This document shows positions 15,327 to 24,241 of a DNA stretch of 36,588 bases, piece after piece. A program made the translations under genes and the position numbers. The notes beneath the pieces are model-generated. The model saw nothing but the letters and a program-made list of their open reading frames with translations. It made no database searches and was not told where the DNA came from. How positions within the stretch are numbered: the stretch's first letter is position 1; each line of letters begins with the position of its first letter. Source of the DNA: an uncultured Gammaproteobacteria bacterium (GTDB taxonomy: Bacteria > Pseudomonadota > Gammaproteobacteria > PS1 > Pseudothioglobaceae); the NCBI GenBank assembly GCA_902511025.1, contig CABXDP010000005.1:1-36588 (forward strand), read 5' to 3'.

Positions 15327-16292
15327 TTAGTTGCCGCATATAAATATTGCTCGCTTTGGAGCAGGATAGCCCTCCACTGTAAGATTTGAGTCAGACGGAT
15401 CAAGAAAATCTTCAAGTGACGCAGGGTTATATCCAATCCATGACGTTTTGCTCTGTTCATGCGTTGAGGTTTGAGTGACATCTATAAGTTTTATATCATT
15501 GAAGCCAGCATCAATAAGCCATGACTTGAGTGTATCAGTGCTTGGTAAACAGTAGACATTTCTCATATTTGCATATCTTCCTTCAGGTTCAATTGTGAAG
15601 TCTCTAGGTCCGTCTACTATTAAGGTTTCAAGTATCAGCTCTGAATCAGTAGCCATCATTTTTTTAAGCATCAATAGATGCTTCATATGATCTCTCTGAT
15701 GGTAAAGAACCCCCATGGAAAAGACACTCTCAAATACTGGCATACTCGGTAATTCTTCTAGCCTGAGTGGCAGCAAAATTGTATTAGAGGTGTTTTTAGA
15801 TAAAGTTTCAATTGCCGCGAATTGATAATTGAACAACATAAAGGGCTCGATACCAAGAACTTTTTTTGCCCCTTCCAGGGCCATTCTTAGGCTGAAATAA
15901 CCATTTCCAGCCCCTATATCTAGAACTCTTTTATTTTTTAATGGACGAATCTTTTTATTGAGTCGTTGCCACTTTAAGTCTCCAAGCCATTCACTTTCTA
16001 AGACTAAGTCATTCAAGAGAAATGGTCCTTTTCTCCAAGGCAGTAATTTCCTTAAACTCAGTTCAATATTTTCTGAGGAGGAGCCTATATCTTGTATGGA
16101 TATATAAGGCTCATTAAGGCCTAATTCTCCCTTTGAGTAACTTTCTAGCTCATCAATTGATTCATTCCATTTGGGTATATTCCCATTTTTTACTTGAAGT
16201 GCTTTAAGGCTTTTAGAAAGGCACTCTTCTTTGAATTGATGAAGGGTTAAATCATTGAAAAATAACTCGAATTTATCTTCAAATAATTTCAT
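15327..16292 (-). CDS. cmoB: tRNA U34 carboxymethyltransferase
   Basis: WRKGPFLLNDLVLESEWLGDLKWQRL, RVLDIGAGNGYFSLRMALEGAKKVLGIEP, SMGVLYHQRDHMKHL, RYANMRNVYCLPS, KTSWIGYNPASLEDFLDP. Confidence 0.92.
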   Translation of the reverse strand: MKLFEDKFELFFNDLTLHQFKEECLSKSLKALQVKNGNIPKWNESIDELESYSKGELGLNEPYISIQDIGSSSENIELSLRKLLPWRKGPFLLNDLVLESEWLGDLKWQRLNKKIRPLKNKRVLDIGAGNGYFSLRMALEGAKKVLGIEPFMLFNYQFAAIETLSKNTSNTILLPLRLEELPSMPVFESVFSMGVLYHQRDHMKHLLMLKKMMATDSELILETLIVDGPRDFTIEPEGRYANMRNVYCLPSTDTLKSWLIDAGFNDIKLIDVTQTSTHEQSKTSWIGYNPASLEDFLDPSDSNLTVEGYPAPKRAIFICGN

Positions 16293-16380
16293 AAATTAAA
16301 TCTTTTCATAAAATACATCTAGTATAAAATAAGTTAGAGATACATATATATGTTACTTTTAACTCTTTTAGGGGATTAAC

Positions 16381-17334
16381 GTGATTAATAAATCAATTAA
16401 ATTTTTGGCGCTTCTGTTTTTGACTTTTAATGTCTTTGCAGGTGGCGATGATAGGGATCAAGTCTATTATGAAAACCTTGATGAAGAACTAGCTGCATTT
16501 GAGGCTCAACTGGCTGAAGATCTAGCAAAAGCTGAAATTGATGCTTTCAAAGCTGAAATGGATGCCGCTCTAGCTGAGCAAAAAATTGAAGACGAGTTGG
16601 CTACATTTGAAGCCAAGTTGGAGGCAGAGCTTGCTGCTCAAGAGATGATGGCAGAAATTGAGGCTGAAATGGCAAGAGCTGCTGCTCTTGCGGCTTTCCA
16701 ACAGAAACTTGAGGATGAAAGAGCTGCTGCTGCAAAATCAACTGCTGCTTATCAATCCAAGTTAGCCAGAGAAGCTGAAATGACTGCTCGTATGGCTGAA
16801 ATTGAAACTGAAAAAGAAATAGCTGCGTTTGAAGCCAAGCTTGCTGCAGAACTAGCCGCTCAAGAGATGATGGCAGAAATTGAGGCTGAAATGGCAAGAG
16901 CTGCTGCTCTTGCGGCTTTCCAACAGAAACTTGAAGATGAGAGAGCCGCTGCTGCTGCTGCGACTCAAGCCTACAGAGACTCTCTTCTAGAAGCAGAACT
17001 AGCAGCATTTGAAGCCCGATTAGAGGCTGAACTAGCTGCTGCAGAGATGATGGCTGAGATTGAAGAAGAGATGGCTCGAGCCGCTGCTCTTGAAGAGGAA
17101 GTGATTGGGGAACTTGTTGTAGAGGATGAAGTTATTGTGGTCACTGAAGAGGCTCATGAAGCCTGTAAGTATGCCCTAGGCTTATCTGATGCCAATATTG
17201 CTCTTTTCGAAAGTGCTTTAGCTGATGGAACTCTATTCAATAAAGGGCCTCAGAGCTCCAATGGTACTGAGTTTGGTGCCAGTAGATGGGATGCTTACGC
17301 AAACTGCGTAAGTAATTATATCAATCCATTCTAA
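16381..17334 (+). CDS. Secreted Ala/Glu-rich coiled-coil repeat protein, copy 1 (family unknown)
   Basis: GTG start after GGGGA RBS; signal peptide MINKSIKFLALLFLTFNVFA|GGDD; repeats ELAxFEAKLxAELAAQEMMAEIEAEMARAAALAAFQQKLEDERAAAA; C-terminal domain CKYALGLSDANIALFESALADG...NGTEFGASRWDAYANCV. Confidence 0.85.
   Translation: MINKSIKFLALLFLTFNVFAGGDDRDQVYYENLDEELAAFEAQLAEDLAKAEIDAFKAEMDAALAEQKIEDELATFEAKLEAELAAQEMMAEIEAEMARAAALAAFQQKLEDERAAAAKSTAAYQSKLAREAEMTARMAEIETEKEIAAFEAKLAAELAAQEMMAEIEAEMARAAALAAFQQKLEDERAAAAAATQAYRDSLLEAELAAFEARLEAELAAAEMMAEIEEEMARAAALEEEVIGELVVEDEVIVVTEEAHEACKYALGLSDANIALFESALADGTLFNKGPQSSNGTEFGASRWDAYANCVSNYINPF
16636..16712 (+). repeat. 77-bp exact direct repeat, unit 1 (partner 16858-16934)
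   Basis: Identical by eye from GCTCAAGAGATGATGGCAG through CAGAAACTTGA; offset exactly 222 bp. Confidence 0.85.
16858..16934 (+). repeat. 77-bp exact direct repeat, unit 2
   Basis: Same sequence as 16636-16712, in frame. Confidence 0.85.
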
Positions 17335-17392
17335 CTATTAAGGCTAGAGTCTTTTTGTTATGATGATTTAACATAACTTTAGTTCAAAATAT

Positions 17393-17424
17393 AAAAAAAC
17401 CCAGAGCTTGCTCTGGGTTTTTTT
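17393..17424. terminator. Strong bidirectional Rho-independent-type terminator
   Basis: AAAAAAACCCAGAGC-TT-GCTCTGGGTTTTTTT: 15-bp perfect inverted repeat with GC core and A/T tracts. Confidence 0.9.
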
Positions 17425-17427
17425 ATT

Positions 17428-17433
17428 TATAAT
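17428..17433 (+). promoter_or_regulatory. Candidate -10 box TATAAT 6 nt before ATG 17440
   Basis: Exact TATAAT; predicted +1 coincides with the A of the ATG (possible leaderless mRNA). No convincing -35 box. Confidence 0.35.
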
Positions 17434-17439
17434 CTTTTA

Positions 17440-18639
17440 ATGAATAAAATTCTTAGTAGTTTTCTAATCTCCTTTTTTTTGATTTTAATATCTACTTCTA
17501 GCTTCTCTGGAGGTGATGATATTTCAGTTCTTCAAGAAGAACTAGATATGATCCTGATGGAAGACCCTTGCTTTAATCATCTAGAGAGTGATATCTATGA
17601 TGAGGGTAATATAACTTCAGTTATATTAATCAAAGGAGATGGCTCATTTACTCAAGGTGATGAAATAATGAGCTCTAGCAATGTTAAGGCAATTGTTGAA
17701 TCTTATGATTCTGATAAAAATCTGCTCACCTATTACCAAACTGCTGAAACAGGTTTCAGATCCTTTTCAATTGGTGAAAAACTGGTAGGAAAGGGTGTAA
17801 ATGTTGTAACAATTGAAGAGTTTGTTTTGGACTTTGTTGTTCCGTGTTCAGACCTTGTAGTGTCAATTGAAGAGAATCCAGAGCAAATGATTTTTGTATT
17901 TGCAGATTCAGAAGCCGCAATTCAGGCTAAGTTAGCTGCGAAAGAGATGATGACAGAGATTGAAGAAGAGATGGCAAGAGCTGCTGCACTTGCGGCCTTC
18001 CTGCAAAAGCTAGAAGATGAAAAAGCTGCTGCTGCAAAATCAACTGCTGCTTATCAATCCATGTTGGCTAGAGATGCTGAAATTGCAGCTCGCATGAAGC
18101 AATTAGCGATTGAACAAGAGCTTGCTTTATTCGAAGCTAAATTAGAGGCTGAACTTGCAGCTCAAGCAATGATGACAGAGATTGAAGAAGAGATGGCAAG
18201 AGCTGCTGCACTTGCGGCCTTCCTGCAAAAGCTAGAAGATGAAAAAGCTGCTGCTGCAAAATCAACTGCTGCCTATCAAGCAAAGGTAGCTTATGAAAAG
18301 AGAGTTACAAAAATTAAGGATGACTTGCTCGCAGAGTTGGACGAGTTTAATTTATCTGGAGAGTATAAATCAACTATTTCAGAGGAGCTTATAAAGGAGG
18401 CTACAGACAAGTTGGCAGAGGAAGAGTTTGTTGGAGCTATTTCTGGAGAAATTGTAACCGAAGCAATTCATGATTACTGCAAGGTCAATCTAGGGCTATC
18501 TGAGAGTAATATTGAGCTATTCAAAAAAGCATTATCTGGAGGTTATCTAGGTAATGTAGGACCACAAGTGACCAATGGAACTGAATTTACAGCTAACAGA
18601 TGGCAGAAGTATATCGATTGTGTGGGTTCAAAAAGATAG
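17440..18639 (+). CDS. Secreted Ala/Glu-rich coiled-coil repeat protein, copy 2 (paralog of 16381-17334; family unknown)
   Basis: Signal peptide ...LILISTSSFSGGDD; 74-aa repeats MMTEIEEEMARAAALAAFLQKLEDEKAAAAKSTAAYQ; C-terminal CKVNLGLSESNIELFKKALSGG...NGTEFTANRWQKYIDCV. Confidence 0.85.
   Translation: MNKILSSFLISFFLILISTSSFSGGDDISVLQEELDMILMEDPCFNHLESDIYDEGNITSVILIKGDGSFTQGDEIMSSSNVKAIVESYDSDKNLLTYYQTAETGFRSFSIGEKLVGKGVNVVTIEEFVLDFVVPCSDLVVSIEENPEQMIFVFADSEAAIQAKLAAKEMMTEIEEEMARAAALAAFLQKLEDEKAAAAKSTAAYQSMLARDAEIAARMKQLAIEQELALFEAKLEAELAAQAMMTEIEEEMARAAALAAFLQKLEDEKAAAAKSTAAYQAKVAYEKRVTKIKDDLLAELDEFNLSGEYKSTISEELIKEATDKLAEEEFVGAISGEIVTEAIHDYCKVNLGLSESNIELFKKALSGGYLGNVGPQVTNGTEFTANRWQKYIDCVGSKR
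17947..18050 (+). repeat. 104-bp exact direct repeat, unit 1 (partner 18169-18272)
   Basis: Identical from ATGATGACAGAGATTGAAGAAGAG through AAATCAACTGCTGC; offset exactly 222 bp. Confidence 0.85.
18169..18272 (+). repeat. 104-bp exact direct repeat, unit 2
   Basis: Same sequence as 17947-18050, in frame. Confidence 0.85.
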
Positions 18640-18649
18640 AGTAGCTTTT

Positions 18650-19207
18650 CTATATCTCAAGCAATGAGTTTTCTTTATCAGCTAAAGATTTGTCAATTGA
18701 AGCGATATGCTGATCAGTAATCTTTTGAATGTTGTCTTCAGCTTTGCGCGACTCATCTTCAGAAATTTCCTTTTCTTTGAGAAGTTCTCTAAAGTCAGAT
18801 ATTGCATCTCTTCGGATATTTCTAATCGCCACTCTGGCATTTTCTGCTTCATCACGAACCACTCTTACTAGTTCTCTTCTGCGATCTTCAGTTAGAGGAG
18901 GCAGAGGTATTCTCATGACCAAGCCTTGGGTATTTGGGTTAAGGCCTAAATCAGAAGTCAAAATTGCTTTTTCAATCGGCCCGACCATATCTTTTTCCCA
19001 TGGCGATACCTTTAAAGTTCTTGCGTCCTCTGCAGTAATGTTTGAGACTTGTGATAGAGGGACCATTGTGCCGTAGTATTCAACAGTGACTTGTTCAAGT
19101 AGTGAGGGGTGTGCTCTGCCAGCTCGAATTTTGCTGAAGTCGTTTTCTAGAGAGGCAAGTGATTTATCCATACGACTATTGGCATCACTATGAATTTCAT
19201 TTATCAT
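18650..19207 (-). CDS. frr: Ribosome recycling factor
   Basis: 185 aa; [67 protein letters not shown]. Confidence 0.96.
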
Positions 19208-20016: not shown

Positions 20017-22833
20017 ATGGATTCAATAAGTATCCGTGGAGCAAAAGTCCATAATTTAAAAAATATAGATGTAAGCCTACCAAGAAATAAGCTCGTTGTT
20101 CTGACTGGACTATCTGGTTCAGGTAAATCTTCATTGGCATTTGATACTATCTATGCTGAAGGCCAAAGACGATATGTCGAATCACTCTCAGCATATGCAA
20201 GACAGTTTTTGTCTTTGATGGAGAAACCTGATGTTGATCATATTGAGGGGCTTTCTCCAGCAATTTCAATTGAGCAGAAGGCAACGTCACACAACCCAAG
20301 ATCAACCGTTGGAACGATTACAGAGATTTATGATTATTTAAGACTTTTATTTGCAAGAGTTGGCTCACCAAGGTGTCCTGATCACGGAGTAAAACTTCAA
20401 GCCCAGACGATTTCCCAAATGGTAGACTCAATTCTAGGACTTCCAGAAGATTCTAAGATGATGATTTTGGCTCCAATTGTTAGAAACAGAAAGGGGAGTC
20501 ATCAAAAACTTCTTCAAGAGTTGTCTCATGAAGGATTCCTGCGTGCCCGAATTGATGGTGAGGTTCAATTCCTTGAGGAAGTTGAAGAGCTAGATGGTAA
20601 TAAAAATCACACGATTGAGATAGTGGTTGACCGGCTTAAGGTTAGGCAAGATATATCTTCAAGGTTATCTGAGTCGCTTGAAACAGCACTAAATATGAGT
20701 TCTGGCATTGCCATCGCAAGCCCTATGGATACTGTTGATGAATGGAAGGAGTTGACTTTTTCAGCTAAGTTCTCCTGTGTTCACTGTGGATACTCACTTA
20801 ATGAATTGGAGCCAAGACTTTTTTCATTTAACAACCCAGTGGGGGCCTGTGAGGCTTGTGATGGTCTAGGAGTTAAAGATGTGTTTGATGAAGAAAGAGT
20901 TGTAGCAAATCCTGAGCTGAGTCTTGAGGATGGAGCAGTTTACGGTTGGAGCAAAAACAATGCTTACTTCTATCAAATGCTCACTCTCGTTGGTAATTTT
21001 TATAACTTTAGCGTATCGACACCGTTTAAAGAGCTATCAGAGGAGCATAAAAAAATAGTACTCTATGGTAGTGGAGACCAATCCATTGACTTTTCTAAAA
21101 TAAAAGGGAGAAGAGGCTGGTCTAGTCGAAAAAAACCTTTTGAAGGAATCATTCCGAGAATGATGCGAAGATATGCTGATAGTGATATTCGTTCGGTTAG
21201 AGAGGATCTGTCTAGGTATGTCATAAGCAAGCCATGCGCGAGCTGTCATGGGGATCGACTCAATGCTGCTGCAAGAAATGTTTTTATAAAGGATCACAAT
21301 ATATCTGATTTGACAAAATTAACGATTGATCAGGTGTATGAGTTTTTTGAAACGCTGGAGCTTGATGGTCAGCGAGGAGAGATTGCCAGTAAGATCTTAA
21401 ATGAAATTTCACAAAGACTTCATTTTTTAATTAATGTTGGGTTGGACTATTTAAATTTAGAAAGAAAAGCCAATTCTTTATCAGGTGGTGAAGCTCAAAG
21501 AATAAGGCTGGCCTCACAGATTGGCGCAGGATTAATTGGAGTTCTTTATGTTCTTGATGAGCCTTCGATTGGATTGCATCAAAGGGACAATCAAAAACTA
21601 TTGGATACTTTGACTTACCTCAGAGATTTGGGCAATACAGTGATTGTAGTTGAGCATGATGAAGATGCAATCAGACAGGCAGATTATGTTATTGATATTG
21701 GTCCAGGGGCAGGCATTCATGGCGGAAAAATCGTAGCTAGCGGGTCACCAGATGAAGTTATTGCCAATACCAAGTCACTCACTGGAGACTATTTGAGTGG
21801 TCGCCAAGAGATTAGCACTCCTAAGAAAAGAAAAAGTTCAAATGAATGGCTTGAGATTACAGGCGCTAGTGGAAATAATTTAAAGAATGTCGACTTAAGG
21901 ATTCCAATTGGAGTGTTAACTTGTATTACAGGTGTATCTGGTTCTGGAAAATCTACTTTAATCAATAATACGTTGTATGAACTAGCTGCACAAACATTAA
22001 ACGGTGCTCAAACAGATATTGCTCCCTTCAAAAAAGTCAAAGGAATGGAACTTTTTGATAAGGTTGTGAATATAAACCAGAGTCCAATAGGAAGAACTCC
22101 AAGATCTAATCCAGCAACCTATACAGGTGTATTCACTTTAATTCGTGACTTATTCGCACTCACACTCGAATCTAGATCAAGAGGATATAAGTCAGGTCGG
22201 TTTAGTTTTAATGTTAAGGGTGGGAGATGTGAGGCCTGTAAGGGAGATGGTTTAATCAAAGTTGAGATGCATTTTCTACCAGATGTTTATGTTTCGTGTG
22301 ATGTATGCAATGGACATCGATACAATAGAGAAACTCTTGAGATTAAATATAAAGGAAAATCTATAGCCGAAGTTCTTGAAATGACTGTTGAGGATGCACT
22401 GGACTTCTTTAAACCGATTCCAAAAATTAATCAAAAAATACAAACTTTAATGGATGTTGGTCTGTCCTATATTACCTTGGGCCAAAATGCTACAACTCTC
22501 TCTGGAGGAGAGGCGCAGCGCATCAAACTAGCTAAAGAATTATCTAAGTCTGATACTGGTCAGACACTCTACATACTTGATGAGCCAACGAGTGGGTTGC
22601 ATTTTCATGATATCAAGCAACTTCTATCTGTGATATTTAGACTTAGGGATCGTAACAATACAATCGTCATTATTGAACATAATCTTGATGTTATTAAAAC
22701 TGCAGATTGGATTGTTGATTTAGGACCTGAAGGTGGAAATAAAGGTGGTGAAATAATTGCTTATGGCACACCTGAAGAGGTAGTAAATTCTAAAAAATCA
22801 TTTACTGGAAGTTTTTTGAGACATCATCTTTAG
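20017..22833 (+). CDS. uvrA: Excinuclease ABC subunit A
   Basis: [35 protein letters not shown], two ABC signatures, CxxC zinc modules (CVHCGYSL...[16 protein letters not shown]...[10 protein letters not shown]). Confidence 0.98.
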
Positions 22834-23540
22834 GTTTGAAAATCAATTGACTTCAAAACAATTCTAAAGGTATTTTTTTTGTTAATTTTATTTATAAGTA
22901 CAGGAAGATAGCTATGTTTTTTTGAAAGATTTAAAGTTAAGTTCAGTTCGGGGCAAGTTACTAATATAGTCTCAATCATTTCATCACTAATATTTATCAT
23001 TTCATTTTCTTCAACAATGAATGTCTGAAATTTAACTTTTTCCTCTGAACCTACTTGATAAATAAATTCTTTTGCAATTAAATCATTATTAATATCCTGA
23101 GATAGAGCTAGGTATACACTCAATTCATCAACTAAATTTCCAGGCGAGACCTTCCACTTTTCATTATTGTTATAGGTAGCATAGTTTTTTTCCGGAAAAA
23201 AATCAATTGTAATATTCTTTTCAGCATTTTCTCCAAGAATCTCTTTAACAGTATATTTTCTGCTGACTAATTCATTGTATGAATTTGTTCCTATACTTTG
23301 TTCAAACCTTGAGAATTTATAAAGTGCACTCCACATTGATTTAGTAGATGCTTCACTTGTATAAATATATTTATTACCATCAGTCTCAAGTCTAAATTCA
23401 GCAACTCCAATTTTGAAATTTCCCATAGAAGTGTCTGCGTATAAATCGTATTGAGCATTATATGGTGTTAGTGCATTAGCTCTTGAAGCAAGAATAATAA
23501 GTATGATAAAAATTTTAAATATCTTCATTAATTCAATCAA
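22830..23540 (-). CDS. DUF3108-like exported protein, copy 1
   Basis: Signal peptide; [61 protein letters not shown]. Next to purN. Confidence 0.65.
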
Positions 23541-23545
23541 ACAGG

Positions 23546-24241
23546 TTATCCTGGAGTAAAGCTAGTAAGAACAAGACGAAATCGAGTTTTTGAGCTATTT
23601 CTATTAATGATTAGGGGAATGTAGTTATATTTTTCAGATACATTGATAGAAATTTTTAATTCTGGGCTAGTTAGTTTAATAGAATTAATATTTATATCTT
23701 CTATACTAATTGTTTCATCTTCCGACCTGATAAAGGTTACTAGTTGAATTCCTTTTTCATCAACAACATGAAATGAGTACTCTTTTAGATTAGGTTTTTT
23801 TTGGAGATTCTCAGATAAAGCAAGGTAAAGATTCAGTTCATCAACTATTATTTTAGAATCTGATCCCCATTTTTTATCATTATTAACCATCACAAATCCT
23901 TCATTCTGGTTAATAAGAATTTTATTATTTTTGGTTACACCATCCTTTTCGATTTCAACAATATCATACAGCCTTCCTCTAATAATATTATCTTCTAAAG
24001 AGCCAATACTCTTCTCATATCTAGTATAGTTATAAAGTTTTTTCCAAATAGAATCTGTATAAGACTGACTCGAAAAAGTAAATTCATTGTTTCCATTGAG
24101 TTCTAACTTAAAATCTGCAGTACCAACTTTTAATGATCCCAAGTCTGTTGTAGCATTGAGTGCATATCTAGCTTCATATGGAGAAATCGCTTGTGAGCCT
24201 GAATAAATAAGAATCAAAATTACGAAAATAACTTTTTTCAT
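23546..24241 (-). CDS. DUF3108-like exported protein, copy 2
   Basis: Signal peptide; ISPYEARYALNATTDLGSLKVGTADFKLELNGNNEFTFSSQSYTDSIWKKLYNYTRYEKSIG; paralogous to copy 1. Confidence 0.65.
   Translation of the reverse strand: MKKVIFVILILIYSGSQAISPYEARYALNATTDLGSLKVGTADFKLELNGNNEFTFSSQSYTDSIWKKLYNYTRYEKSIGSLEDNIIRGRLYDIVEIEKDGVTKNNKILINQNEGFVMVNNDKKWGSDSKIIVDELNLYLALSENLQKKPNLKEYSFHVVDEKGIQLVTFIRSEDETISIEDININSIKLTSPELKISINVSEKYNYIPLIINRNSSKTRFRLVLTSFTPG

Follow-up and report, generated by a model that had tools for sequence, protein, structure and literature searches.

A conserved C-terminal domain and variable helical repeats in putative envelope proteins of the Thioglobaceae

What kind of protein is encoded by the two adjacent, similar genes found between cmoB and frr, and what could it do in the cell? 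We have analysed the whole stretch of 36,588 nucleotides (hereafter the window), from a bacterium of the open ocean, in comparison with the genomes of the family Thioglobaceae. Both ORFs noticed in the initial annotation are present between cmoB and frr, and the pair and its parts are located as follows.

15327-16292, minus strand: cmoB, one flank of the gene pair
16381-17334, plus strand: gene 1 (P0001), GTG start, 317 aa, orthologue of the family-wide protein
16381-16440, plus strand: probable type I signal peptide of gene 1, VINKSIKFLALLFLTFNVFA, recognized by eye in the sequence (41 of the 43 members aligned have Ala in front of GGDD)
16441-16458, plus strand: N-terminal tag GGDDRD of gene 1, start of the predicted mature protein, from its conservation across tag-bearing members
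16471-17091, plus strand: Ala/Glu-rich helical spacer of gene 1 (33% Ala, 21% Glu) with 74-residue repeats (self-similarity at offset 74)
17146-17331, plus strand: C-terminal domain of gene 1 (Cys262, Cys309) with a predicted beta hairpin ahead, from the AlphaFold model and conservation
17440-18639, plus strand: gene 2 (P0002), ATG start, 399 aa, paralogue of gene 1
17563-17898, plus strand: beta module of gene 2 with two cysteines (AlphaFold strands, pLDDT 75-91 across the core)
17911-18345, plus strand: predicted continuous helix of gene 2, 145 residues or about 22 nm (AlphaFold)
18460-18636, plus strand: C-terminal domain of gene 2, from conservation and AlphaFold
18650-19207, minus strand: frr, the other flank of the gene pair

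As the earlier reading had it, both proteins begin with a basic and hydrophobic leader that ends directly before GGDD and, judged by eye, looks cleavable. In the first protein it is followed by GGDDRD, a helical spacer of ca. 207 residues rich in Ala and Glu, a beta hairpin and the C-terminal domain; in the second by GGDD, the beta module, a helix of ca. 145 residues and again the C-terminal domain. Three features had been overlooked: the conservation of the GGDDRD tag across the family, the beta module of gene 2 and the apparent transcription of genes 1 and 2 as separate units. The last point concerns the following signals.

16323-16330, plus strand: probable -10 element TATAAAAT of the gene 1 promoter, divergent from cmoB; the sequence TAGTATAAAAT is invariant in 7 aligned genomes
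17391-17426, plus strand: intrinsic terminator hairpin between genes 1 and 2 (16-bp stem, -31 kcal/mol, z = -5.4)
17428-17433, plus strand: TATAAT, probable -10 element of gene 2, six bases ahead of the ATG (six of the 7 genomes read TATAAT and one TAAAAT)

The promoter-like match of gene 1 (9 of 12 positions) ends at 16330, and an AGGGGA Shine-Dalgarno-like run precedes the GTG. The terminator, found by folding and alignment and absent from the output of the promoter/terminator scan, is kept with stem changes in the alignment of 7 genomes. An operon with the neighbours was rejected, as cmoB and frr lie on the opposite strand and the terminator parts genes 1 and 2. Since the conserved TATAAT stands only six bases before the ATG, the gene 2 transcript is probably separate and leaderless. 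Within 17391-17440 of the window, the conserved terminator of gene 1 directly abuts the conserved TATAAT of gene 2. Farther along, after uvrA (22830-24241, minus strand), there are two more tandem, similar-looking exported proteins of 236 and 231 aa.

The C-terminal domain comprises ca. 60 residues with the pattern HxxC...RWxxYxxC. The two copies in the window align with a score of 173 against a maximum of 55 in 5000 shuffles, so far above it that the likeness is not one of composition. The motif described initially is indeed common to both proteins, with the correction that it starts C-x3-LGLS and not C-x5-LGLS. Its two cysteines, also noted then as conserved, occur without exception in the 63 homologous regions aligned; the full set of invariant residues in these 63 sequences is C, L, N, G, P, G, T, F, R, W and C, with His-x2-Cys invariant or nearly so. 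Values of pN/pS for orthologous domains are low (0.02-0.15 against most relatives in the genus of the window, g1, rising to 0.36 with the most divergent of those tested), which indicates that the ORFs are coding; together with matches in nearly all genomes of the family, this dispels the doubt whether they are real genes with homologs.

We found neither a database family nor an open-access paper describing this domain, so that it remains as unfamiliar as it first seemed: nothing in Pfam or NCBIfam matched above the curated cut-off, and nothing among PDB sequences or by Foldseek. The most frequent weak Pfam match was to DUF5484 (PF17583), with a best E of 0.03; the similarity extends over ca. 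35 residues in 4 of 25 members, and at 13.8 bits against a cut-off of 27 the domain is not a member of that family. AlphaFold models it as a hairpin followed by three helices (E-E-H-H-H) with moderate confidence (mean pLDDT 76.5). Taking as a match a Foldseek E below 0.001 or a significant PDB profile match, solved structures gave none (best E 0.77 by sequence in the PDB, and 1.6 by fold with the model of pLDDT 76.5). A viral origin was also rejected: the sole match on a viral contig (L092) was a chance NRWQKYID in a phage gene, and no phage match was obtained.

The domain was detected in 77 of the 83 genomes of the Thioglobaceae (SUP05, ARCTIC96BD-19 and the bivalve symbionts), or 76 if the marginal match in G001 (E = 0.006) is discounted, and in all 11 genera. 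It was found in none of 365 other genomes of the class nor in 398 genomes of the phylum (the two samples overlap), and remote homologues beyond the family were therefore rejected for the genomes sampled; the order contains no other family in the genome collection. The other 10 genera usually have one gene only, which lies at cmoB-X-frr and encodes 120-170 residues, made up of a signal peptide, the tag GGDDRDxGPVES, a short linker and the domain, and nearly all loci with full flanks show the syntenic slot bioC-znuA-cmoB-X-frr-pyrH-uvrA. The same pair does occur in genus-level relatives, such as PS1 (L047) with its two tandem genes, and elsewhere the single short gene is the rule: the tandem pair is an elaborated genus-level form of a family-wide protein. 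The proposed duplication in place holds as a local duplication within one genus, with the qualification that gene 2 is not a plain copy, having a beta module besides the duplicated parts.

Retention by the whole family does not by itself indicate a structural role. Nevertheless, in two genomes on contigs of 1,022,154 bp (L093) and 1,033,397 bp (L095), in which the tRNA modification gene cmoB is undetected and decayed, respectively, the gene with tag and domain is intact, with pN/pS of 0.19 between the two (51 codons, few changes), which speaks for a function that has been maintained. Even so, the domain cannot be wholly indispensable, since two near-complete genomes of g1, G001 and G020, are without it and have in the slot a protein that keeps tag and beta module and has a different C terminus. 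In most of the remaining negatives the region is missing or the sequence stops within it (the contig of G012 ends inside the domain, and no frr was found in G007, G008, G013 and G014), and because contig breaks or a missing frr may explain them, true gene absence was not concluded for most negative g1 genomes. On the whole, comparison of the sequences suggests that the domain probably does an important job in the cell envelope of the Thioglobaceae.

Some variants were also seen. Two g1 genomes (L114:2122-2730 and L115:2122-2730, minus strand) carry in the slot a protein with tag and beta module in which an unrelated two-cysteine tail replaces the domain. In genus g6 there is another short copy, unlinked to the first and with the tag GGDPRD (L103:3370-3747, L105:3708-4088); in L105 its neighbours are two small genes resembling a toxin-antitoxin pair. 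A third paralogue lies at another locus (L058:1996-2769, L050:4150-5344 and L052), near a MATE-type transporter-like gene; its N terminus resembles a membrane anchor and lacks the tag, and in L050 a broken frame splits it into two ORFs.

A hexagonal S-layer has been described in SUP05 strains in culture, PS1 and EF1 among them, and S-layer protein homologues are found in the symbionts (PMC6509183), that is, in the same clade as the C-terminal domain, so the protein could be part of this surface layer or of its anchoring to the outer membrane. We consider this rather improbable, as the S-layer protein of EF1 is reported to be of 34 kDa (PMC6509183) and the likely EF1 homologue of our protein has 132 aa (L100).

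What has been conserved, and what has changed, is clearer when the parts of the protein are taken separately. In the tag-bearing members GG is present in 43 of 43, D3 in 40, D4 in 37, R in 37 and D6 in 38; some members are without tag and some gene 2 copies have a degenerate one. The spacer between the tag and the first cysteine of the domain ranges from 47 to 412 residues across the family, being ca. 50 in most of it and 215-410 in the genus of the window, by way of the Ala/Glu-rich helical repeats. Given that most members have only a linker of ca. 50 residues, the conserved function lies in the tag and the C-terminal domain and not in a coiled coil as such, and the stalk is, as far as these sequences tell, a late add-on. 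Such a range excludes a fixed periplasmic ruler. Helical repeats of the same type are found in genus g5 (L042, L109) and not in g7; a tree of Frr, PyrH and UvrA groups g5, g7 and g1 (support 0.92), and the repeats were thus lost in g7 or gained twice.

The middles of neighbouring paralogs share long tracts of exact DNA in finished genomes, 225 bp in PS1 and 527 bp in G028, and the unlinked third copy in G009 has 150 bp in common. Orthologues from different genomes match exactly over no more than 34 bp, apart from a single close pair with 90 bp; the longest exact run between genes 1 and 2 of the window is 38 bp. As the identical DNA is found within and not between genomes, the middle appears to be reshaped by recombination inside the genome, with both ends diverging under constraint, and ectopic recombination among the repeats would be the simplest cause of the identical middles. 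Many contigs end just upstream of the C-terminal domain, consistent with assembly collapse in the repeats. Of the initial reading of the middles the long helix is supported, and coiled coil is a term that calls for caution. The AlphaFold model of gene 2 consists of the beta module, one unbroken helix of 145 residues (high confidence) and the domain, in an overall arrangement that is unreliable (pTM 0.28), and the hydrophobic periodicity of the helix is significant with a peak at 3.36 (3.35-3.37), against 3.5 for a canonical heptad.

A helical, exported protein in sulfur oxidisers could also be a sulfur-globule envelope protein, by analogy with SgpD of Allochromatium, which is Sec-exported, partly helical, clade-restricted and bound to periplasmic sulfur globules (PMC10386293); in EF1, moreover, the globules are periplasmic and there are four putative sgp genes (PMC6509183). 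However, prolines recur at regular intervals in all of SgpA-D, and extreme hydrophobicity is a feature of SgpA-C (PMC10386293). The proteins described here are acidic (net charge -46 and -36), and it is the genus of PS1, a mixotroph, that has the most elaborate of them. We know of no sulfur globules in PS1, and regard this role as quite improbable.

We propose, with about even confidence, that this Thioglobaceae-specific, probably exported envelope protein works as an extensible tether. Sec would carry it to the periplasm, the face of the outer membrane or the S-layer, the oxidising periplasm would allow its cysteines to pair, the tag and the C-terminal domain would each bind a partner in the envelope, and the middle would set the distance between the two partners. 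In g1 the middle would have become a long Ala/Glu-rich helix of 74-residue repeats, variable in length and homogenised between paralogs by recombination. Gene 2 would have arisen by duplication and then gained the beta module, which could add a second binding head. The spacer is not tuned to one distance, and a tether is one reading of it. Its main rival is a stand-alone binding or redox domain, that is, a small periplasmic module for a metal, redox cofactor or ligand, with the N-terminal extension as a flexible or solubilising tail. The conserved H, C, N, R, W and C do fall within a 50-residue core of the domain, and the short form of most genera is little more than tag and domain. We judge it unlikely all the same, because it leaves unexplained the near-equal conservation of the tag and the growth of the repeats in one genus; the domain contains no CxxCH or known metal motif and has no family or fold match.

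The beta module of gene 2 is restricted to 14 of the 83 family genomes, all from g1. No significant PDB match was obtained for it, and a fold assignment of gene 2 by Foldseek was rejected, since only non-significant small beta barrels were retrieved. Eight of nine members match weakly to PHROG 438, a baseplate wedge (best E 1.8e-4; 0.06 for the copy in the window), and tblastn gives weak matches to cyanophage baseplate genes (E 0.4-0.6).

There is one more trait with a similar distribution. We could not detect ftsZ in any of the 82 family genomes searched (all 11 genera), while 13 of 14 control genomes were positive. EF1 and the symbionts had been reported to be FtsZ-less (PMC6509183), and division without FtsZ now looks family-wide in the Thioglobaceae. 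The clade bearing the domain is the same group of genomes, from which a contribution of the protein to FtsZ-less division or to the maintenance of shape might be supposed. It is highly improbable: any family-wide trait would give the same coincidence, and G001 and G020 are without both ftsZ and the domain. We take the overlap as a coincidence of distribution and not as evidence of a common pathway. The more specific version, in which the protein is the envelope part by which these bacteria divide or hold their shape, with tag and domain tethering two layers and repeat lengthening tuning the system, is a conjecture to which we give hardly any credence. Like the S-layer and sulfur-globule roles, a role in division is ecologically attractive.

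To the Thioglobaceae belong bacteria abundant in the dark ocean as well as the sulfur oxidisers that live in symbiosis with clams and mussels of the deep sea. A domain that is near-universal in the family and kept even in symbiont-sized genomes of 1.0 Mb offers an entry point to their envelope, the study of which might possibly bear on how they divide without FtsZ. The g1 proteins would also illustrate how, within one lineage, helical repeats exchanged between paralogs can make a protein longer, and many of the contig breaks in published assemblies, from single cells and from metagenomes, coincide with these repeats.

Among known systems, TolA has a periplasm-spanning Ala-rich helix and a C-terminal globular domain. 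Our proteins resemble it in being probably exported, with an Ala-rich charged helix and a small C-terminal domain, and the third paralogue also in its anchor-like N terminus. They differ in that there is no tol-pal cluster here, the helix is absent in most members and genes 1 and 2 have cleavable-looking signal peptides; by inspection neither of these two has the N-terminal membrane anchor of TolA, only the third paralogue looking anchored, and no TolA model was among the Pfam matches at E up to 1. The likeness to PHROG 438, from the baseplate wedge of T4-like marine phages, is confined to the ca. 100-residue beta module of gene 2, whereas the rest of that protein is unrelated and the neighbouring genes are ordinary chromosomal ones. 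SgpD of Allochromatium vinosum is Sec-exported, as is predicted for our proteins, and also clade-restricted, partly helical and from a sulfur oxidiser; it forms its own transcription unit and is not essential in the laboratory (PMC10386293), but it has regularly spaced prolines and has been reported almost exclusively from Chromatiaceae, in contrast to the acidic Ala/Glu helix and cysteine-bearing domain described here. Helical envelope proteins that are exported and carry a terminal domain are of a known kind; the C-terminal domain itself, the tag and the swapping of repeats are new here.
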